Source: Acholeplasmatales bacterium
GTDB lineage: Bacteria > Bacillota_I > Bacilli_A > Acholeplasmatales > Acholeplasmataceae
NCBI GenBank assembly: GCA_031284745.1
Contig: JAITXJ010000025.1
Span: 1-51,028 of the forward strand
Reading direction: 5' to 3'
Length of the DNA stretch: 51,028 bases
This document shows positions 17,545 to 49,871 of the stretch, piece after piece (the first letter of the stretch is position 1; the number at the start of each line of letters is the position of its first letter). The notes beneath the pieces are model-generated. The model ran no database searches. It had not been told where the DNA came from and worked only from the letters and a program-made list of their open reading frames with translations. A program made the position numbers and the translations under genes.

Positions 17545-17678
17545 TTCTTTAACCTCATAATAATTATATATGAATTTTGAAAAATTCTTTAAAAAACCAA
17601 AAAGCCGGCTAATTTCTTACTGAAATCGTTTTCAAATTATTTAATATTGAATTTTCATTGAATCTTTTGAAAATAGTG

Positions 17679-17684
17679 TATAAT
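17679..17684 (+). promoter_or_regulatory. Promoter -10 of the 913-residue lipoprotein, placed for a leaderless mRNA
   Basis: TATAAT ends six bases before the ATG at 17691, so transcription should begin at or next to the start codon. There is no purine-rich ribosome-binding site in between (TAACGT). A possible weak -35 (TTGAAT) lies slightly too close. The geometry suggests leaderless translation. Confidence 0.5.
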
Positions 17685-17690
17685 TAACGT

Positions 17691-20432
17691 ATGAAAAGGA
17701 TTATATTATTATTCGTTTTAAGCCTTACACTTAGTTTGATTGCGTTTGGTTGTAAGCCAGCAACACCTCCTCCACCACCGCCACCTCCACCACCCGTTTA
17801 TTCTAACTATGTAATTACTTATTTAGTTAAGTATCCTGACGATGGTAATTATTTTACTTATAAATCTGTCTTATACAATACTGCTAACCCCTTTAATTTT
17901 GAAACTGGTCCCGATGATCAAGGTAATTATTATTTTAATGGCTGGAGTGCTAGCCCTGAAGGAACAATTCTGCCAACAACATATCAAGTAACTAGCGATC
18001 TTAATCTTTATGGCTGGTATTCGTTAGATCTTCCAGATTTTGCTCTAGAAATTGGCGACATTTTAAGTTGGTTTGAAATCAATTATTCTTATGCCTTTGA
18101 AACTGGGTGGACCTACGGAAATTTCCTAGTCACCGAACACGGCATGTTGGATGCCATCGCCAATGATAGTACCAATCCTAATGGTCTAACTAGAGATTAT
18201 CGTGATGTCATGCACTATAGTTATTTAGAAGGTTCCACAATTCATTTCTTTCGAGGCAATGAATTTGGTTTTGCTAGTTACAACGAACGATACAATTTAG
18301 CAACTTTCAATGAATATAATATTTATAATCAATTAATTTTTAATGATGATGATAATTATGTCACGATCAACCTAAATGGCGAATTTAACTACGATGGCAG
18401 TTTCTCCTATGAAAAAAATATTGCCTCTTTCTTTGCTCGCTTAATTTTAGGTGATGAACTCGGCTATTGTCGCGCAATTGAGATAGAATTCGTCGACGAT
18501 ACCTTAATTGTTTATGGGATTGCTAAAGAAGCATTTTCCTTTCTAGAATTACCTGGCGTTTTGAGTCCAAGTGGTAAACCAGTTATTTTTACTAGTGAGT
18601 TTAATGATATTGACACCACCGAAATTGGTCCTTTTACCGAATTTTACTTATCTAATACCATTCCCGTCTATGGTGATCTTGGTAATTGGGATGATTTACT
18701 TAGCGTCTTAAATCAACAAATGTATGTCGTCTTGAATGAAGACGTGGAAGATGCCTATCTTGCTTTAGTTTCTGTACTTCCAAGTATACCAGGAGAATTA
18801 GATTTTGATTATTATAGCGAACCTGATTCTGTTTACTATTTTTCGCGAATTTCTTTTGCAATTTTCAATAAAACCGAAAGTGACTTAGCTTTATTTGTTC
18901 AACAAGCTTTTCCTCTATCGATGGGTATCGATGATGAATGGGGTTTATATTTAGTTAATGATCCCATTAAAATTTATTTATTGCCTTATTACAATCAAAG
19001 TGATCAAATCTTGGTTATGAACTTTTATTTCCAGCATTATGGATTGTGGCCAGAATTACAAGTCAATAATCTAATTCATAACACCTTCCCTGATATTGAT
19101 GTTCCACCTCTTTTAGGAGCAGTTCGTTATTATTTTAGTAGTAACTTTACAGGAAATTACGTGGTTGCTTACTTAGAGGCTGGACAAAGTCCCCAAGCAA
19201 TGGTCGAAACTTGGATTGCTTATCTACTAAACAATCATGGTTATTTACGAGTAATGACTAATCAGGGCGAGCAAATTCAAGATCCAAGTAAGCGAATTGC
19301 CTTGTATTTCCAAACCTTTAATGATTTTGGTCCGGAAGTTATGATTGATTTTATGCTGGCAAGTCCCGGAGCAGAGATTGGTTGGCCAATCACCCAATTA
19401 AATGATTTAGGCCTCAATATTATCCCTGAGTGTGATGGCCAATTTTACTCCATTGGTTATCAATCAGTCATCGATGCCTGGCTCATTAGTGTCATTAACC
19501 CAAATATTGGTTTTTATGAATATCAAGCTCTACTAACTTCTTTGGGTTTTACAAGAGTGTTTGAGGATCCTGCGTGGTCAACAATGTATTCCTTTTTAGC
19601 TCCTGATGGTATTCATCAAGTAACTGTCTCTAATCGAACATTTGAAGGTCAATATTGGATTACAATCTATGATCGAGTTTCTAGTCCCTTAGTTTATACT
19701 TCCTATATTCCCTCTTCATTAAATACTCTTATTGGTCCAAACTATTTAGATATACCGTTTGCTCAAGGAGCAGGAGCATCTTATAGTTTAATTAATTCTT
19801 ATTTAATTTTTGGACAAGGGATGGAAGATGTTCCTTCTAACTTAAGATATAATGTTTGGGGAATCTACTCAATTAATTTAACACCAGAAGAAATTACAAC
19901 CTTTTATGCGAATTTTATCGCTGGGGGCTGGGCTCGTGGGGAGTTTGGAATGTATTATAGTGATCAATATCCCGGCTTAGGAATTAATTATATTGATTTC
20001 TTGGATGGTTCAATTTTAGTGGGCGGGGCTAATTACTATTATGGTTATAGTAATGCTAATGCAGCTATTTCCGCGGCCATTGCGGCTTTCTTATTGAAGT
20101 ATCCAACTTATTCAACGCAAATCAATGATATATCAGATGCCTTTCCTAGTTTACCAAATAATAGTTATCAAACTACTTTAACATATATTTATGGTTCACC
20201 CCAGGGATCAGAACAAATGGAAATTGCCATTACTGGCATTAATAATACAACAGCAACTACCTTTCGCAATGAGTTGTTTGCAAACTACTCCTTCCAACCA
20301 CTGCCAAACAATCGTTATCAGGGGGCCCTATGGAGTCAAAGAGGCTATGCAAATATTAGCGGGGGAACAATCTGGTTTGATATTACCTTAGCTTATTTCA
20401 GCAATGTATTATATATTTATATAAGGAACTAA
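17691..20432 (+). CDS. Large secreted lipoprotein: polyproline linker, InlB-type repeat and tandem ~100-residue modules
   Basis: 913 residues. A signal peptide ends in a weak lipobox (IAFG before Cys21), followed by a run of ten prolines (about 27-36) using mixed codons. Residues about 39-113 resemble a Listeria-Bacteroides (InlB B-type) repeat: FNGWSASPEGTILP then LYGWYS. The remainder has no recognised enzyme motif. From about residue 345 to the end I see about five degenerate units of 95-115 residues. Units starting WPELQVNNLI (about 453) and WPITQLNDLG (about 565) are clearest, each with a later 'L...GY/GF' turn and alternating Tyr/Phe-rich strands. The same unit type occurs in the next gene and in the metalloprotease gene at 46185. 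Probably an anchored surface protein; function unknown. Confidence 0.85.
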   Translation: MKRIILLFVLSLTLSLIAFGCKPATPPPPPPPPPPVYSNYVITYLVKYPDDGNYFTYKSVLYNTANPFNFETGPDDQGNYYFNGWSASPEGTILPTTYQVTSDLNLYGWYSLDLPDFALEIGDILSWFEINYSYAFETGWTYGNFLVTEHGMLDAIANDSTNPNGLTRDYRDVMHYSYLEGSTIHFFRGNEFGFASYNERYNLATFNEYNIYNQLIFNDDDNYVTINLNGEFNYDGSFSYEKNIASFFARLILGDELGYCRAIEIEFVDDTLIVYGIAKEAFSFLELPGVLSPSGKPVIFTSEFNDIDTTEIGPFTEFYLSNTIPVYGDLGNWDDLLSVLNQQMYVVLNEDVEDAYLALVSVLPSIPGELDFDYYSEPDSVYYFSRISFAIFNKTESDLALFVQQAFPLSMGIDDEWGLYLVNDPIKIYLLPYYNQSDQILVMNFYFQHYGLWPELQVNNLIHNTFPDIDVPPLLGAVRYYFSSNFTGNYVVAYLEAGQSPQAMVETWIAYLLNNHGYLRVMTNQGEQIQDPSKRIALYFQTFNDFGPEVMIDFMLASPGAEIGWPITQLNDLGLNIIPECDGQFYSIGYQSVIDAWLISVINPNIGFYEYQALLTSLGFTRVFEDPAWSTMYSFLAPDGIHQVTVSNRTFEGQYWITIYDRVSSPLVYTSYIPSSLNTLIGPNYLDIPFAQGAGASYSLINSYLIFGQGMEDVPSNLRYNVWGIYSINLTPEEITTFYANFIAGGWARGEFGMYYSDQYPGLGINYIDFLDGSILVGGANYYYGYSNANAAISAAIAAFLLKYPTYSTQINDISDAFPSLPNNSYQTTLTYIYGSPQGSEQMEIAITGINNTTATTFRNELFANYSFQPLPNNRYQGALWSQRGYANISGGTIWFDITLAYFSNVLYIYIRN

Positions 20433-20487
20433 TATATTTTAAAATATATATTAAATATAGAATTAACATTTTTTATTGGAGGAATTT

Positions 20488-23400
20488 ATGAAAAAAATTG
20501 TTATCACTCTTAGTTTAATTTTAGGGTTGGTAGTTACAGGTTTAATTCTTGTAAGTTGCACACCAGAACCTAAAGTTGAAACTTACAATCTCAATGTTAC
20601 AAATCAAAATCCTGATTTGGGTACCATCTCTGGCACCCCGAATGGTACCTATGATGAAGGCACAACAATTAGCGTTTCGGCTGATCCGAATGCAGGAGCT
20701 TCTTTTACGGGTTGGTATCAAGATGGTGTTTTAATCGTTACAGCCGAAGATTATAGTTTCCCAATCGATCAGGACACTAATTTGGTGGCGCATTTTGCGG
20801 TCTTACCAGTTTATTATTCCTATAGCGTTTCTTCACAAAGCACCGACCGAGGAACCGTAGCTGGCACTGCCAGTGGTAGTTATTTAAAGGGATCTGCTCT
20901 TCGAGCAATTGCTAATGCTAAATCAGGCGCTTATTTTACTGGTTGGTATCAAGCAAATCAATTAGTATCTTCTTCATCGACTTATGATTTTACTTTAGAA
21001 GCTGATACTACTTTAGTTGCCCACTTTGAATTAGAAATAATTCATTACACCTTGTTAATATCTTCGGAAAATTCACTTTATGGTAGTGTCTCTGGTTCAC
21101 CTAGTGGACAATATGATGAAAATACCACCTTGACAGTAGTCGCAACCGCGGTTGATGGAGCTTCTTTCGATGGATGGTATAGTGGCACAACTTTAGTATC
21201 TAGTGATTCTCCTTATGTCTTTGATTTAGTAGGCAATATCACTTTAGTGGCTAAATTTTCGCAAATAGCTACTGATACTGTGGAAATAAACGGCGCTCCT
21301 GAATGGGCTTTAGTTGGCGATTCATTTACAGTTGGTGTTACTATTACACCTTCTAACTCTTGGTTAGCCTATCATCCCGCTAATTTGGTGGTTACTCCTT
21401 CGGCAAGCGCAACTCTTGGCAGTGATGGTCTCGTGACAATTTCTGCTGCTACTACCGTTAATATTAGTTATGTTTTAAATGATTCCACCGTTTTAGCAAG
21501 CCAAAATATCATTGTTTTACCTGATATTTCAACCTTAGGAACTAATTTTACCATTACTTCCGGCACTAAGACTTGGGTGGCTGCGGAAGGTTTTTATAAA
21601 GAAATTACCTCCGGAGTAGAAACTCTCGCCTATATTCGTAATGTTCAAGATCTTTATTGGCGAGTTACGAAAGATAATTTAGGCGCACCCGTCGGTGTTA
21701 CTTGGCATGTATCGATGGATGCCTCGGTAGCTTATAACACAATTTCCACCAATACTTTATTTTCTAGTTCGGAAGGTATTGTTTATTCCGCTAATGTAAT
21801 TACTTTGTATTCCTCTAATCCCGATTCTTTATTAGCTAAATTAGCACAATTTAGTTCCGCCTTAACTGGGGTACCGGTAGCTTATGCTTATTGGGATAAT
21901 GGTGTGCTCAATATCTCTGATGGAAATTCTACTGTCGTAACAATTAGTGGATTTGGTGAATCAGTGGATGAACGTTTATCAAGACTATATGAATCAGGTT
22001 CCACCAATGTTCCTCAAACAGCTTGGATTGCAACTTGGGCGGAAATCGGTAGTGTTTATGCTGCTTCGATTGACTCAGTCATCTTTGACTTAATTCCTAA
22101 CGAAAGTCAATATCACCTCTTCAAAAGTCCTTTCTTTTCTAGTGAAGAATATTATAATATCCTCGAGGCAACACTGGTTGATATAGATTATTCCCAATAT
22201 GTGGCCTACTTAAATGGTTTACAAATACCTCTAGTTGGCGGAAGATACAACGTTAGTGTCGATCCAGGCTTAAAATTATTAGTAGCTAATCTGAGCGGAA
22301 CCTTAATTGGTCTATATATCGAAAAACCACTTGATAAAGTTTGGCCAGAAGCTCAAATTATTAGTCTCATCAATAATAATCTTGGCGTCACTGTGGGAGT
22401 TAACGCTCCAGCGTTCGAGGGTGGCGATGCTTATATTGCTAAATACGTCTCCGATTTTAATCAATATGTACAAATAAGAGTATTATTCTTAAATTCGCAG
22501 CCAAGTGCCGCCAGTGCCGCCCCATACCTTCAAGCCTATTATGATAATTTACTAGCTGCCGGTTGGCATTATGTTGCAACAACTGATGGTATCAACCTTG
22601 TAAATGCCGCTAATAACCTACGAGTAACCGTTTCCTATTCGGATTGGTCTTATTACTTTGAAATAAATATTTATAAAGTAACAACCATCACTCCACTTCC
22701 TTCTTCCTGGCCAACCGCTAGTTTAGTTAGTAATTTAGGCGCGAGTGTGGCGGATGTTCCCCAAATTGCCGGAATTGGTTTCAATTATTTCTGGAACTCC
22801 TTTGATAATTATGCAACAGTTCGGGTCTATGCTGTGGGTATAACTACACAGTCTTACATAAATATTTTAAACGCTAATGGTTACCTAGTAATCTTCCATA
22901 ATCCTCGTATGTGGGATGGTTCTGGTACTAGTTATGTTAATGGAACTTGGCAGATTACCGTATCCAACAATGGAACTAATATCATTGATATTCTTATTTA
23001 TGCAGAAGTTGATCCATTACCTGCGTTTAGTTCAAGTTGGCCAGCTGAAGTTAATGTCTTTTCACCAGTTGCAATCGTTCCCGAATTAGTATATCCAACC
23101 GCTCAATTTGCCGTGGTTAAAAATACCGCTTCGGTTTTACAAATTTATATTATCGGCCTTAGTGGTTATAATGCAGCTGTTTATGCCCTCACTTTAGCGA
23201 TGGCCGGCTGGCAGGTTGATATTAATTCTTTAGTAGCAACTCATCCTTCTGATCCCGGAGTTGTTCTATCCTTAGCGCTCTTAGCTAATGATGGGGCCTT
23301 AGTAACCATAAATAAGACCACCTTTAACACAACTTGGGATAGTTTCTTAGTGGCTATCGGTGCTCGATATAACTATGCCTTTACTAGCGTTATCTTCCCT

Positions 23401-23658
23401 TCAATTGGGACATTTACGGGAATTAGTTGGGACCCAGCTCAATCAACTGGAGCCAACAAAACCACAATTACCATTACCGGCGTTGATCAAGCAACTTATG
23501 AAAATTGGTTTGCTTTACTAGCCGCTACAACTGGTTGGCAAGTATTCAACGGGGGAACCCAATATGATTACCGATTAACCGGCATGTGGCCTTCCATTTC
23601 CGATATCGTTTATAATGCTCAAACCCAAACTTTAGTCTTTTCTTTCCGCGTTTGGTAA
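20488..23658 (+). CDS. Large secreted lipoprotein: three InlB-type repeats and tandem ~100-residue modules
   Basis: 1056 residues from ATG 20488, chosen because GGAGG lies five bases upstream; an in-frame TTG at 20476 precedes that site. The signal peptide ends in a good lipobox (LVSC, Cys24). Three divergent InlB-type repeats follow (about 31-104, 108-182, 184-259), each with 'GTV/SG..SG.Y..G', 'FTGWYQ' and 'LVAHF'. An Ig-like stretch may follow to about 350. The C-terminal half has repeated modules starting WPEAQIISLI (about 618), WPTASLVSNL (about 740), WPAEVNVFSP (about 850), with 'Y...L...GW' inside each, and a last one near 969. It lies 55 bases after the previous lipoprotein gene, separated only by an AT-rich palindrome, so the two are probably co-transcribed paralogues. 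Confidence 0.87.
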   Translation: MKKIVITLSLILGLVVTGLILVSCTPEPKVETYNLNVTNQNPDLGTISGTPNGTYDEGTTISVSADPNAGASFTGWYQDGVLIVTAEDYSFPIDQDTNLVAHFAVLPVYYSYSVSSQSTDRGTVAGTASGSYLKGSALRAIANAKSGAYFTGWYQANQLVSSSSTYDFTLEADTTLVAHFELEIIHYTLLISSENSLYGSVSGSPSGQYDENTTLTVVATAVDGASFDGWYSGTTLVSSDSPYVFDLVGNITLVAKFSQIATDTVEINGAPEWALVGDSFTVGVTITPSNSWLAYHPANLVVTPSASATLGSDGLVTISAATTVNISYVLNDSTVLASQNIIVLPDISTLGTNFTITSGTKTWVAAEGFYKEITSGVETLAYIRNVQDLYWRVTKDNLGAPVGVTWHVSMDASVAYNTISTNTLFSSSEGIVYSANVITLYSSNPDSLLAKLAQFSSALTGVPVAYAYWDNGVLNISDGNSTVVTISGFGESVDERLSRLYESGSTNVPQTAWIATWAEIGSVYAASIDSVIFDLIPNESQYHLFKSPFFSSEEYYNILEATLVDIDYSQYVAYLNGLQIPLVGGRYNVSVDPGLKLLVANLSGTLIGLYIEKPLDKVWPEAQIISLINNNLGVTVGVNAPAFEGGDAYIAKYVSDFNQYVQIRVLFLNSQPSAASAAPYLQAYYDNLLAAGWHYVATTDGINLVNAANNLRVTVSYSDWSYYFEINIYKVTTITPLPSSWPTASLVSNLGASVADVPQIAGIGFNYFWNSFDNYATVRVYAVGITTQSYINILNANGYLVIFHNPRMWDGSGTSYVNGTWQITVSNNGTNIIDILIYAEVDPLPAFSSSWPAEVNVFSPVAIVPELVYPTAQFAVVKNTASVLQIYIIGLSGYNAAVYALTLAMAGWQVDINSLVATHPSDPGVVLSLALLANDGALVTINKTTFNTTWDSFLVAIGARYNYAFTSVIFPSIGTFTGISWDPAQSTGANKTTITITGVDQATYENWFALLAATTGWQVFNGGTQYDYRLTGMWPSISDIVYNAQTQTLVFSFRVW

Positions 23659-23673
23659 AATTAAAATCTTTCG

Positions 23674-23707
23674 AAAAAACATCCTCCTTCGTGGTGGGTG
23701 TTTTTTC
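23674..23707 (+). terminator. Intrinsic terminator after the lipoprotein pair
   Basis: AACATCC (23678-23684) and GGGTGTT pair, with CC/GG continuing after one T-T mismatch, closed by a TTCG-containing loop and followed by TTTTTT (23701-23706). A run of A upstream means it could also work weakly on the opposite strand. Confidence 0.75.
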
Positions 23708-38684: not shown

Positions 38685-38724
38685 ATAAGTACTAGATACT
38701 ACCCAATTTAGTAAGGGAATGAAA

Positions 38725-40221
38725 ATGATGGATGCTACAACATTAAAAGAAAAAATGCAGAAAATAATCGAATATTATCAACCATATGGTTCGACGATTA
38801 TTAAAGTGAAGGATAAGATAATCTTTGAAGATTATTTTGGTTGGGAAACCAAGGATAAATCCCCAATTACCAAAGATACCCTTTATAATATTGAATTACA
38901 ATCCAAGTTTTTATTAACTCTCGCTACGATGAAACTAGTCGAACAAAAATTATTAAAATTAAATACTAAACTTTCTACCCTTTTAAATTTAACTGGTGAA
39001 GTTGGCCAGTTGAGCGTTCGCAAGATTTTACTATGCAAAGACCAACTTTTAGATTTTAATTCACAAAGACTTCAAGAAATGAATAGGGATGAGGAGTATC
39101 AAAAATTAGATCCTATTGAAAAAAAACTTCAAGATTTTTGCTTAACTGCTCGGCAAATAACTGATCAGGAATACCATAATTTTCTTGCTCAACAACCATT
39201 AAAGGGAGTAGTGGATATTGATACCGATTGCCGACGTTATATTTTAAAACAAATTATTCAAAAGATCACTAAGAAAGATTTTTTTGATTATTTACAAGAG
39301 GATATCTTTAGTAAGTTAGATATCACTATTTACAGAAATTTTAACTATCAGGTGGCTAATTACACTTCGCGTTTTAGTGATTCTAAGATGCGACTCATCA
39401 CGCTCAAAGACCCTTTAGTTGCTACTATCGGCTTAAAGATGGGTGATCTAGCTAAATTTCTCGAAGCTTTTTTTCATGGAACAATTATTAATGAGGAAAG
39501 CTTAAAATTTTTAGGACCAAAGCGCCATAATTTTGGTCTTTTAATCGATTATGAAAAAGGTTTTTATGGCGTGCAAATGGAATTTTTAACCACAACCTTC
39601 CAAGGTTATTATAATAAGCAACAAGATACCTTACTCATTTTGGCCTTAAATCATAAGGGACTCTTAATCCCAGGGCCAGTTAATGATGAGTCCTACATTG
39701 GTGACTTATTGCGGTTGGTCAATGAATACAATTTTCAATACTCCCACCCCACATTAGTACCCTTAACTTCCAAATGGATTCATAGCGCCATCGAGATCGA
39801 ACTAAAACCAGAACAATATCGCTATGTTTGTAATGGTGCAGCCACTATTGCTTGGTGTAGTGTTTATGCAAAAAACAAATTAATGGTTCTGGTCGATAAT
39901 GAGATTGCCGTTGGCTTATGCTCTTTATATCAAGATAAGACTAAGAATTACTATTCAATCGATTCAGTAATGGTTGATAAAAAATATCAAAACTTGGGTT
40001 ATGGAAAGCAAATTATTCAACAGTCTCTGGCCATATTACAAAAGAAAGGATGCAAAGTCATCAATATTGGCGTAAGCATGGAAAACATTGCCGCCTATCA
40101 TATTTACTTGAATGCCGGATTTAAAATTAAAAACATGGATGCCTGGGGATATGATCTGGTTTGGGAAGATAGTTATTTAGCTAGTCCTATTCCTGGGCTG
40201 GCGAAATTGAACGATCAATAA
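38725..40221 (+). CDS. Serine-hydrolase-like (beta-lactamase fold) domain fused to a GNAT acetyltransferase
   Basis: 498 residues from ATG 38725, seven bases after AAGGG (an ATG at 38719 is too close to that site). The N-terminal 330 residues have the outline of class C beta-lactamase/serine hydrolases: 'ITKDTLYNIELQSKFLLTLATM' (in parts DTLYNIELQSK), 'LNTKLSTLLNL', 'DFFDYLQEDIFSKLDI'. The nucleophile of the SxxK motif is replaced: the aligned residues are LQSK, and the Tyr-x-Asn element is not seen, so it is probably inactive. The last 130 residues are a GNAT domain with the acetyl-CoA loop KYQNLGYGKQII, 'SVMVDKKYQNLG' and 'NIAAYHIYLNAGFK'. Substrate unknown. Confidence 0.8.
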   Translation: MMDATTLKEKMQKIIEYYQPYGSTIIKVKDKIIFEDYFGWETKDKSPITKDTLYNIELQSKFLLTLATMKLVEQKLLKLNTKLSTLLNLTGEVGQLSVRKILLCKDQLLDFNSQRLQEMNRDEEYQKLDPIEKKLQDFCLTARQITDQEYHNFLAQQPLKGVVDIDTDCRRYILKQIIQKITKKDFFDYLQEDIFSKLDITIYRNFNYQVANYTSRFSDSKMRLITLKDPLVATIGLKMGDLAKFLEAFFHGTIINEESLKFLGPKRHNFGLLIDYEKGFYGVQMEFLTTTFQGYYNKQQDTLLILALNHKGLLIPGPVNDESYIGDLLRLVNEYNFQYSHPTLVPLTSKWIHSAIEIELKPEQYRYVCNGAATIAWCSVYAKNKLMVLVDNEIAVGLCSLYQDKTKNYYSIDSVMVDKKYQNLGYGKQIIQQSLAILQKKGCKVINIGVSMENIAAYHIYLNAGFKIKNMDAWGYDLVWEDSYLASPIPGLAKLNDQ

Positions 40222-46184: not shown

Positions 46185-49100
46185 TTAACTCCAAGTTAAT
46201 GTTATATTCGCAAAGCCATTACCAATACTACCGTTAATGGTAATAATGACATTGATTGCGCTCGAATTGGTATCCCAAGTATAGTACTGTCCAAGATTAA
46301 GGGTTCCACTCCTTAGGAGATCACCACTTTTCACCCCGCTGGAGCGAATGGAATTATTATGGTCGGCTTCCAGAATTTCAATTAAATTATTCGAACTAGC
46401 TGATTCATTATCATATAGAAAATTCATCCACCAACTATTACCCGAAGAATAAACATTGGAATTGACATGGTAAATCACTACCCCATCAACCGTTGGTAAG
46501 ATTCCCTGATTACTATGTGCAGCATACAAACCTTCCCCGGCTTCATAATACATAATCAAGAGATATTCACCAAAAATCGAGCCATTCCAGCTACTTCCAT
46601 AAGGAATTAAAATCGTATCTCCTGCAATTTCATATTGTGGTAAATTGAATGTAAAGGTTCCATGTGTAGCAATATAAGGTTCAATCCAACCAAAGAAGAA
46701 TTTATTAAAAGGACCATGATCACCACAATTATAATCTTGCATATCAAAACCACCAAGAGGACCACGGTTGCTATTGCTATATAAATCTGTCATACCCAAC
46801 ATATGACCAGTTTCATGGATGTAGGTTTCCGCATTTCGGCCACTGATGACACCACTTAAACCCGTATCGCTCGCAAAATTAATCGAAGCCCATTGATAAT
46901 ATTGTAATTTCTTACCATCAACAGTCACGTTTTTTAAACCAGTAGCTTGCGGAAGATAAACCCAAGCCCACCAAGGATCGGTACTGTAATCATAACCGCG
47001 CGAGTAAATGAAATATACTCCATCTAAGGTCCCATCGTTATTATTATCATATTGAGCAAAATTAATCGTCGAGTCCATTCCCACTAAGGCTTCACGAATA
47101 ATATCCTGATCACGATAATTAGCGTATTGTCCCGAACTAACTTGGTAACTCGCATAATTTTTTGAAGCCGTAAAGACAGGTGAAATATCAAAAGTAACAT
47201 TTAAGTTTCCATAAGAAGAAACTCTTAAATAAGAGCTCACGCTTTCCCAACCTGTTTCCGCATGAGTACCATTGAAAACATAATTTAAATTATTTAATTC
47301 GGTCGTGGTAAAACTATCATTAGGAAATTGAACAGGAATGACTAAAGAATGATAGGTCCCCACACTCGGCATACTGGTATAGGACATGTTCGACTGGTAT
47401 TCATAAATATTTTGATAGCCAGTTCCACTATGTGGATAAGGAATATTATAAGGAGGAGTTCGATCTTCGGTTAAAGTCCATCTAACACCATAAGTTAAAT
47501 TTTCTAAAGTAAGATAAAACTCTTCACCCACCAAATAATAGCCATTACTATTTTCTAAATAACCTAAGCCAGCTAATTCAGCTAAATATTGATTTAGGGT
47601 TACGCTATTCCAATCTAAAATATTTACCTCAATATTAATGGTAAATTCACCACTATTATTCACCAAATTCACATAATAAGCTTCAATATTCGAAACTAAT
47701 AAAGCGGAAACATTAGAGCCATAAATAGAATTAATTTCACTATAAGGGAAAGCATCGACAAAAGGTCCTTCGTCCACAATGCTATAACTAATATAAATAT
47801 GATGCAAGTAAATGGCACGATTAACCAGTGATTTTAAATTAAGATTAAAAGAACTACTATGAACATTTAAATCTTCCACCACATAATTAATCACCGAAGT
47901 TGATTCAAAATGATATTCGGATAAATAATTACCAAAGCCAATTTGCGCTATCGCACTTCCTCCCGCGGAAACACTTAATCCTAGGGAATAGCCATGAATA
48001 ACGACGTTACTTGGTAAAGTAGTATTAAGTAACCAATAAGCTAATTGCGGATTAGCGGTGGTGCCAATTTGCAAACCCTTCGTTGAACTAAAACTAATAG
48101 CGCTCATCGCTTGCGATTGCCAGGACCAATTTAAATTACCGACGTTATTGATAATACCACCACCAATATTTACTTGTCCACTAACTAATTGCCACTGATA
48201 GTCAAAATCTAAAACCAATATCTTTTTAACTTCCACCTGATAACTAATTGCCTTATTAACACTACCTTCTTGATAATTTATGGTAACATTATAAAACCCA
48301 GCTATACCCCATAAAATTGATGAAGCATTAATCGTATAACTTGTCACATTTTGAAAAGTGCTATTGCTATAAAAAGCCCGAACTTCCAAGCCCAAAGTAT
48401 TAAGACTAGTGGCTTCTAAACTATAAGTTGTTTGCTCAGGGAAAGCCACTAAGGAGATGCTTGTTAAAGTATAAACAGTTAAATCATAAGAAGCATAAAT
48501 AGTAACCGCATGATAGGTATAACTAATTAAAACATTATAAACACCAGTTACCCCCCACACCACATTCGATAAATCGATGTCTACCGCAACTACTGCGATA
48601 GTGGAATCACTATAAGTAACTTGAAATTCGAGGCCAGCACTACTATAATCACTTAACCTTTCATCAATATAATAATTTTGTTTAGGAAAATTTAAGAACA
48701 TTCCGCCCACCGGAGTTACAAGAATAATTTCAATATAAAAACTTGTTGACTTCGTAATGCTATTATGAGTATAAGAAACAATGACTTGATAACTACCACC
48801 AAAGCCATAATTAATATTTGAAGTATTAATAACTAATTCACTAAGAGCGAGAATACTAGTAACACTATCACTATAATTAGCTCTTACAATTAGACCCGTT
48901 ACATCAATTTCTAAATCAGCATCACTATATTGAGTAATATATGGTAAACTAATAATTTCAATTGATTGGAGAGTTAATACTTGGTATACAGCATAATAAC
49001 TTTGATTTTGACTAACTGTGCCCAACGGAATAATTTGCCCAAAAGGCGATAAACTCCAACCCAATAATTCCCCACTGACTTGGCCATTATAACTAATTTG

Positions 49101-49871
49101 TTGACCATAATGATAGGTTTGACTAATACTGGTAAGATCATCAATAACAAAGGTAATTACATAGTCAATATAACTACTACTATATTGAGCTGTATAGCTA
49201 GTGTTGGTAGTAGCTATCGTTAATTGTGGGTTCCAACCACTAAAGGTATAGTTATAAACATTATCACTTGGTTTAGTTGGCACTAAATTAGTGGTTACAA
49301 CTTCATTCTTTTGAAAACTAACAGTTTCTAAAAGACTTCCATCATAATTTAAAAAAGTAATAATAACTGAACCATTAGAATAGCTATAAATGTGAATATA
49401 GCTGCTTAGAATAGTTATTTCTTCAAGAGTAACAGAATATTGAGAATCTAAATAAAAGCCATTTAATTGACTGCTTTCATAACCAGGTATAACTATTTGG
49501 CTCAATACTAAGATATTATCGACTGTTGGCACATAATAAGCATTATTATCTAGATGAACATAAGCCCCAAAGGTATTAACAAACAAAGCAACAATTACTT
49601 GATTGTTAGCTTTAACTTTTAAAGTATCGCTTAATTCAATAAGAATATCGTTTTCAAACCATCCAACAAAGGTATAACCATCATCACTAATTGCCTTTAA
49701 AGTAGCAAGTTCATTTTTCTTATAATTAGTCTTTAGTCCGGTTACTTCCCCATTTTCATAATTAACTGTAATTTTATAATTAGTATTACCAAAAAATCCA
49801 TTACAAGCAACTAAAATAATAGTAGAAACAATAATCACTAATAATAATCCTAATTTTTTCATTTTATTCAT
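46185..49871 (-). CDS. M6-like zinc metalloprotease lipoprotein with InlB-type, Ig-like and shared repeat modules
   Basis: 1228 residues. Lipobox LVAC (Cys23). InlB/Listeria-Bacteroides-type segments lie at about 31-100, 170-230 and 238-296 (marks: FVGWFEN, ITFLNYDG, LLGWSLSPFG). Three Ig-like (Big_3-type) repeats at about 297-565 each end 'I.WG..G.Y.V.I.Y'. A 705-800 segment (FPYSEINSIY ... YLAELAGLGY) matches the modules of the lipoproteins at 17691 and 20488. The catalytic domain follows (about 815-1130): SYLRVSSYGNL, a Ca-type loop YDNNNDGTLDGV, and HETGHMLGMTDLYS (near 1019), the HExxHxxGxxD zinc motif of M6 proteases. Start has GAGG eight bases upstream. It leads maf-hslO-ABC. Likely a cell-anchored degradative or processing protease. 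Confidence 0.88.
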   Translation of the reverse strand: MNKMKKLGLLLVIIVSTIILVACNGFFGNTNYKITVNYENGEVTGLKTNYKKNELATLKAISDDGYTFVGWFENDILIELSDTLKVKANNQVIVALFVNTFGAYVHLDNNAYYVPTVDNILVLSQIVIPGYESSQLNGFYLDSQYSVTLEEITILSSYIHIYSYSNGSVIITFLNYDGSLLETVSFQKNEVVTTNLVPTKPSDNVYNYTFSGWNPQLTIATTNTSYTAQYSSSYIDYVITFVIDDLTSISQTYHYGQQISYNGQVSGELLGWSLSPFGQIIPLGTVSQNQSYYAVYQVLTLQSIEIISLPYITQYSDADLEIDVTGLIVRANYSDSVTSILALSELVINTSNINYGFGGSYQVIVSYTHNSITKSTSFYIEIILVTPVGGMFLNFPKQNYYIDERLSDYSSAGLEFQVTYSDSTIAVVAVDIDLSNVVWGVTGVYNVLISYTYHAVTIYASYDLTVYTLTSISLVAFPEQTTYSLEATSLNTLGLEVRAFYSNSTFQNVTSYTINASSILWGIAGFYNVTINYQEGSVNKAISYQVEVKKILVLDFDYQWQLVSGQVNIGGGIINNVGNLNWSWQSQAMSAISFSSTKGLQIGTTANPQLAYWLLNTTLPSNVVIHGYSLGLSVSAGGSAIAQIGFGNYLSEYHFESTSVINYVVEDLNVHSSSFNLNLKSLVNRAIYLHHIYISYSIVDEGPFVDAFPYSEINSIYGSNVSALLVSNIEAYYVNLVNNSGEFTINIEVNILDWNSVTLNQYLAELAGLGYLENSNGYYLVGEEFYLTLENLTYGVRWTLTEDRTPPYNIPYPHSGTGYQNIYEYQSNMSYTSMPSVGTYHSLVIPVQFPNDSFTTTELNNLNYVFNGTHAETGWESVSSYLRVSSYGNLNVTFDISPVFTASKNYASYQVSSGQYANYRDQDIIREALVGMDSTINFAQYDNNNDGTLDGVYFIYSRGYDYSTDPWWAWVYLPQATGLKNVTVDGKKLQYYQWASINFASDTGLSGVISGRNAETYIHETGHMLGMTDLYSNSNRGPLGGFDMQDYNCGDHGPFNKFFFGWIEPYIATHGTFTFNLPQYEIAGDTILIPYGSSWNGSIFGEYLLIMYYEAGEGLYAAHSNQGILPTVDGVVIYHVNSNVYSSGNSWWMNFLYDNESASSNNLIEILEADHNNSIRSSGVKSGDLLRSGTLNLGQYYTWDTNSSAINVIITINGSIGNGFANITLTWS

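Follow-up and report, generated by a model that had tools for sequence, protein, structure and literature searches.

Surface proteins built on InlB B-repeats (List_Bact_rpt; PF18998, PF09479) and those built on tandem Big_2 or aBig_2 domains provide the closest described comparisons for the genes analysed here, together with the uncharacterised Pfam family DUF6591 (PF20234), for which we know of no structure; literature searches turned up no pertinent work, either on DUF6591 or on Acholeplasma lipoproteins of the InlB type. The window, the whole 51,028-nucleotide stretch under analysis (contig JAITXJ010000025.1 of an Acholeplasmatales bacterium), encodes two adjacent lipoproteins, P1 and P2, that share features with each of these. 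The N-terminal stalk of P2 is of the InlB type, whereas the five C-terminal units of P1 and P2 are unrelated to the InlB domain. Big_2 and aBig_2 domains serve as an exchangeable stalk in orthologues and relatives of the pair, yet they have an Ig-like beta fold and the P1/P2 unit is alpha/beta. DUF6591 runs through the same elements as the unit, namely a W-P start, a helix, (I/L)P, a strand pair, a helix ending in Y...GF and a second strand pair. Unlike DUF6591 itself, the window's units score below the reportable Pfam level and correspond to the first ~100 of its 228 positions, and P1 and P2 carry five copies each on InlB or Big stalks.

P1 and P2 are neighbouring + strand open reading frames among genes that look to be of ordinary housekeeping type. 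The features of the locus are as follows, with unit E-values from a six-frame profile search of the window's whole genome.

17658..17684, + strand: promoter-like TTGAAT-15-TATAAT just 5' of P1, read from the sequence (spacing 15)
17691..20432, + strand: P1, predicted lipoprotein of 913 aa, lipobox AFGC at residues 18-21
17808..18026, + strand: single degenerate InlB/List-Bact-type repeat of P1 (residues 40-112), by sequence pattern
18027..18689, + strand: middle segment of P1 (residues 113-333), conserved in the orthologue H1
18690..19046, + strand: P1 unit 0 (residues 334-452), weak by sequence, placed by co-linear alignment A6 and secondary structure order
19047..19382, + strand: P1 unit 1 (residues 453-564), 4.0e-15
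19383..19709, + strand: P1 unit 2 (residues 565-673), 2.5e-13
19710..20051, + strand: P1 unit 3 (residues 674-787), weak by sequence, placed by co-linear alignment and secondary structure order
20052..20429, + strand: P1 unit 4 (residues 788-913), 2.8e-8
20478..20482, + strand: Shine-Dalgarno sequence GGAGG of P2, before ATG 20488
20488..23658, + strand: P2, predicted lipoprotein of 1056 aa from ATG 20488, lipobox LVSC, Cys codon 20557-20559
20596..21261, + strand: three InlB B-repeats of P2 (PF18998, three stretches, E 1.1e-27)
21262..22029, + strand: middle segment of P2, with no detectable relation to that of P1
22030..22341, + strand: P2 unit 0, weak by sequence, placed by co-linear alignment
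22342..22707, + strand: P2 unit 1, 1.3e-16
22708..23037, + strand: P2 unit 2, 3.4e-15; predicted structure pLDDT 88.9, pTM 0.80
23038..23331, + strand: P2 unit 3, 2.2e-6
23332..23655, + strand: P2 unit 4, 3.1e-13
23673..23707, + strand: predicted intrinsic terminator after P2 (-18.6 kcal/mol, z -6.0, U-rich 3' side)

Both proteins begin with a signal peptide II pattern and a lipobox cysteine. Because GGAGG lies at 20478-20482, we place the start of P2 at ATG 20488 rather than at the listed TTG 20476, a mechanical choice of the first codon of the reading frame. No Shine-Dalgarno sequence was seen before the ATG of P1, and the TATAAT ends 7 bases before this codon, so that the expected transcription start coincides with it (17658-17693); the P1 message may therefore be leaderless, in contrast to the adjoining P2. 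The TTGAAT-15-TATAAT element was not among the predictions of a promoter scan. The two genes are probably co-transcribed as one operon. A PADLOC search of P1 and P2 gave a chance-level match only. Elsewhere in the window, a giant 1228-aa protein with an InlB repeat (46185-49871, - strand) has no unit match, and a 500-residue protein (38719-40221, + strand) appears to fuse a beta-lactamase-type domain to a GNAT acetyltransferase.

The initial annotation described both proteins as repeat arrays that follow ordinary InlB-type repeats. This holds for P2, in which Pfam profiles (PF18998/PF09479) recognise three repeats, with a 231-nt periodicity in the DNA; P1 carries at most one degenerate repeat, for which the Pfam search found no match. 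The order it gave also lacked a segment, since in both proteins the InlB part is followed by ~220-255 residues of other, non-repeat sequence before the first unit begins. No Pfam domain was matched in the P1 middle segment, and the idea that the two middle segments are one domain found no support (hhalign probability 0.4%). Another InlB lipoprotein of the same genome (622 residues, G000:C38:3758-5626, L009), with a weak M1-type metallopeptidase match, lies beside trmD/rimM-like genes.

In its C-terminal half, each of P1 and P2 carries an array of five units of ~100 residues, co-linear between the two proteins, and the tandem repeat proposed from the first reading proved real. Units cut at their W-P starts (P1 453 and 565; P2 623, 745 and 855 counted from TTG, or 619, 741 and 851 counted from ATG) align to each other in register in single-sequence comparisons without a profile, and the starts read initially (453/565 and 618/740/850) agree within about 5 residues. 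Within a 20-sequence database, pairwise matches reached 0.001 between unit 2 of P1 and unit 2 of P2, and 5e-4 to 9e-4 between unit 2 of the orthologue H2 and unit 1 of P2. The recurrence expected in related lineages was also found, as profile searches recover units in other genera. A profile made solely from units of other genera gave E=1.8e-7 for P2 and 5e-4 for H1, against 0.039 for the best of 1005 shuffled or reversed controls, in a comparison that is partly circular, the training units having been picked because the window's own profile found them. Narrower training weakened the match: ten units from one protein of another genus (G004) found P2 at 0.01, those plus units from G001 at 5e-5, and a profile of S41 inserts alone did not find P1 or P2 above shuffles. 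The family is therefore very divergent, with unit-to-unit identity of 12-27%, and the case for a single family is built on the chaining of profiles, together with register, order and fold. In the ten-unit profile (A1), P, P, L and G are invariant and W is present in 9 of 10 units; an attempt to align unit pairs taken with overlap (A5) came out misaligned and was dropped. Four lipoproteins account for all 11 matches at E≤5 in the window's genome: besides P1 and P2, two that are encoded on a different contig.

Where the earlier reading allowed four to five units per protein, five are supported by the co-linear alignment, position scoring of units 1 and 2 and the secondary structure of the P1 array. 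Units 0 and 3 of P1 and unit 0 of P2 have little sequence support by themselves, and are placed mostly by their order in the alignment and by a model of low confidence.

The unit had been regarded as unnamed, and in a direct sense it is: a direct search gave no PF20234 match for P1, P2 or any of the ten units at E≤10, no unit matched another Pfam domain directly, NCBIfam gave no direct match for the units of P1/P2, and the PF20228 (DUF6587) profile gave no matches. A distant kinship with DUF6591 nevertheless emerges through intermediate sequences. Among 100 Bacilli genomes, PF20234 scored over cut-off in three, and its place in one of them (G238) is one that the unit profile had found independently. 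Two lipoproteins bridge the families by matching both profiles at the same residues: L108 (G444) reaches PF20234 1.2e-8, over cut-off, and L102 reaches 6.7e-6, just under cut-off in one search and over it in another. In the DUF6591 protein L119:1836-2597, the second of two tandem repeats is matched by the unit profile over its full length as well (9e-4, model positions 1-99), and a profile comparison by hhalign against four DUF6591-type repeats reaches 93.8%. Convergence on a simple alpha/beta pattern by a separate, truly unnamed superfamily would fit the missing direct Pfam matches and the hhalign value of 26% obtained when the two bridging repeats are left out, with only the two DUF6591-proper repeats remaining. 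We consider such convergence improbable, given the two bridging proteins, the full-length coverage of a DUF6591 repeat and the common W-P...L-P...Y...GF pattern and tandem habit. Because of the bridging proteins, the full-length match and the profile comparison, we regard the unit as a divergent tandem relative of DUF6591, homologous by these comparisons to its N-terminal ~100 positions; it falls outside the family by the Pfam curated cut-off, and the rest of the 228-position domain has no counterpart. As DUF6591 is a family without an assigned function, the name itself explains little.

Structure prediction adds to this picture. The model of P2 unit 2, built from a 17-row alignment of paralogous units and predicted with high confidence, has the order helix-strand-strand-helix-strand-strand-strand-strand; the rows of the structure alignment are sequences from the window and L111. 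When the P1 array was modelled in full from five rows, all five segments showed approximately a helix-strand-strand-helix-strands order; as the mean pLDDT of this model is 62.7, we treat it as supporting only. Foldseek searches of the unit against PDB and viral models returned none at E≤0.001 (best TM about 0.42), and sequence searches of the PDB using two unit profiles found nothing above chance level. Weak Foldseek similarities to profilin, Flpp3 and TP0453, none at E≤0.001, were not used. The predicted order presumably resembles profilin/roadblock-type folds, and we do not claim a new fold.

Orthologues of both genes, H1 and H2, adjoin in the same order in an Acholeplasmatales MAG of a different genus (G002, JAITXT010000008.1). 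P1 aligns with H1 over residues 125-902 (E 4e-72) and P2 with H2 at E 2e-7; a third copy, H3, lies next to them. Beside H1-H2-H3, a 1443-residue lipoprotein (L046:821-5152) that lacks Pfam domains and shows weak unit matches at about eight places is possibly a fourth array protein. The stalks in G002 are Big_2 domains instead of InlB, and InlB, Big_2 and aBig_2 all occur over the same kind of array; the stalk is thus exchangeable and the array kept. P1, P2, H1, H2 and H3 align as five co-linear units, in which, for all five proteins, a unit 1 profile from one paralogue group singles out unit 1 in the other group, and a unit 2 profile singles out unit 2 for four of them, with a near tie in the fifth; units 0, 3 and 4 carry little position-specific signal. 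This co-linearity and the position identity of units 1 and 2 indicate that the array most likely predates the split of P1 and P2, and the duplication suggested in the initial annotation is supported. An array-bearing ancestor would have been duplicated before at least two genera diverged.

The domain is spread well beyond this locus. Within the order, the A1 profile found carriers in 15 of 160 genomes; in the class Bacilli, a 41-unit profile (A2) found them in 54 of 395 genomes and 29 of 193 genera, with 1 to about 10 units per protein. The arrays follow Big_2, aBig_2, InlB or Ser-rich linkers, as in a 1145-residue lipoprotein of another genus (G004, L055) in which one Big_2 domain precedes ten tandem units. 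Nearly all carriers examined have a lipobox; those without are H3, an incomplete H3 copy, one 5'-truncated reading frame and one S41 protein of doubtful start. Many of the genomes in the family to which the window's genome belongs (f1) form a group of 0.3-0.9 Mb in size.

A second setting is the secreted peptidase. In S41 peptidases of families f1, f5, f16 and f24, one unit sits as an insertion between the His-motif part (HTSYGY) and the Ser-motif part (FSAANS), and in L100 and L110 units stand N-terminal to HELGH-type peptidases. InlB-type lipoproteins whose S41 domain is interrupted by one DUF6591-like unit (L048:3802-6396, L047, L049-L053, L056, L057, L101 and L106) form a type conserved across several families. 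L048:3802-6396, from the same order, resembles P1/P2 in its lipobox, InlB start and unit, and differs in that its unit lies within a catalytic domain; neither an S41 catalytic domain nor an HExxH motif was found in P1 or P2 by Pfam search and motif check. In the window's genome, a metallopeptidase-like lipoprotein (HETGH, HETGHLLGLLDYY; G000:C23, L091:6936-8552) is flanked by two unit-bearing lipoproteins, and a weak candidate unit may occupy its first ~100 residues. Such company raises the idea that the units are protease-associated regulators, acting in substrate recognition or propeptide-like inhibition; P1 and P2, as relatives without an enzyme, would then sequester the substrates of peptidases secreted by the organism, or present them. 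The S41 insertions, the HELGH fusions and the flanked HETGH lipoprotein speak for it; however, P1 and P2 retain no peptidase remnant, most other carriers have no recognised peptidase domain, and the candidate unit of the HETGH protein is weak, which leaves this explanation quite unlikely for the pair.

In the A2 alignment, no polar residue is conserved to 40%, and the conserved residues are W, P, Y, L, G and I only. Enzymatic activity of the unit is therefore unlikely. With identities of 12-27%, a purely architectural role is possible: the units might be passive beads that distance other parts of the protein and have no ligand of their own. Tandem beads in variable number, conservation that is structural only and the exchange of company with Ig-like stalk domains would all suit a spacer. 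Yet the lipid anchor is N-terminal, so the array forms the distal tip rather than the stalk; a single unit sits inside S41 catalytic domains, where a spacer has no obvious use; and units 1 and 2 keep their own identity between paralogues. A passive spacer is accordingly a minority reading, if a credible one.

The distal position on a lipid-anchored stalk, the multiplicity, the divergence between units and the recurrent fusion to secreted peptidases instead favour a binding module. P1 and P2 would be secreted, lipid-anchored surface proteins, probably from one operon, in which an InlB-type stalk and a middle segment carry the five-unit alpha/beta array as a multivalent extracellular binding surface for protein, peptide or glycan, on a cell that from its lineage is probably wall-less; other Bacilli place the same module inside or beside secreted peptidases. 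As a whole, paired lipoproteins with five DUF6591-like units serving as a multivalent binding array is the explanation toward which we lean, with modest confidence. That the units of P1 and P2 bind something is the most likely reading of their role, about evenly balanced against the spacer and protease-regulator explanations taken together.

As Pfam and NCBIfam miss the units, large lipoproteins of Acholeplasma-like and small-genome Bacilli look uncharacterised beyond their stalks. What is new here is that the unit, by sequence comparison, is a previously unrecognised distant relative of DUF6591. More speculatively, wall-less and other small-genome Bacilli may possess in it a large class of binding domains for the cell exterior that has escaped annotation and whose fold has no match in the PDB; these would serve much as Ig or CBM arrays do, as tandem surface arrays and as insertions setting the substrate choice of secreted peptidases, with DUF6591 as only the best-sampled outlier of the class. 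One domain, its fold and its DUF6591 link unify many lipoproteins across the Bacilli genomes sampled; the insertion into S41 peptidases offers a handle on what the unit does, and recognising the domain points to what these cells show on their surface.
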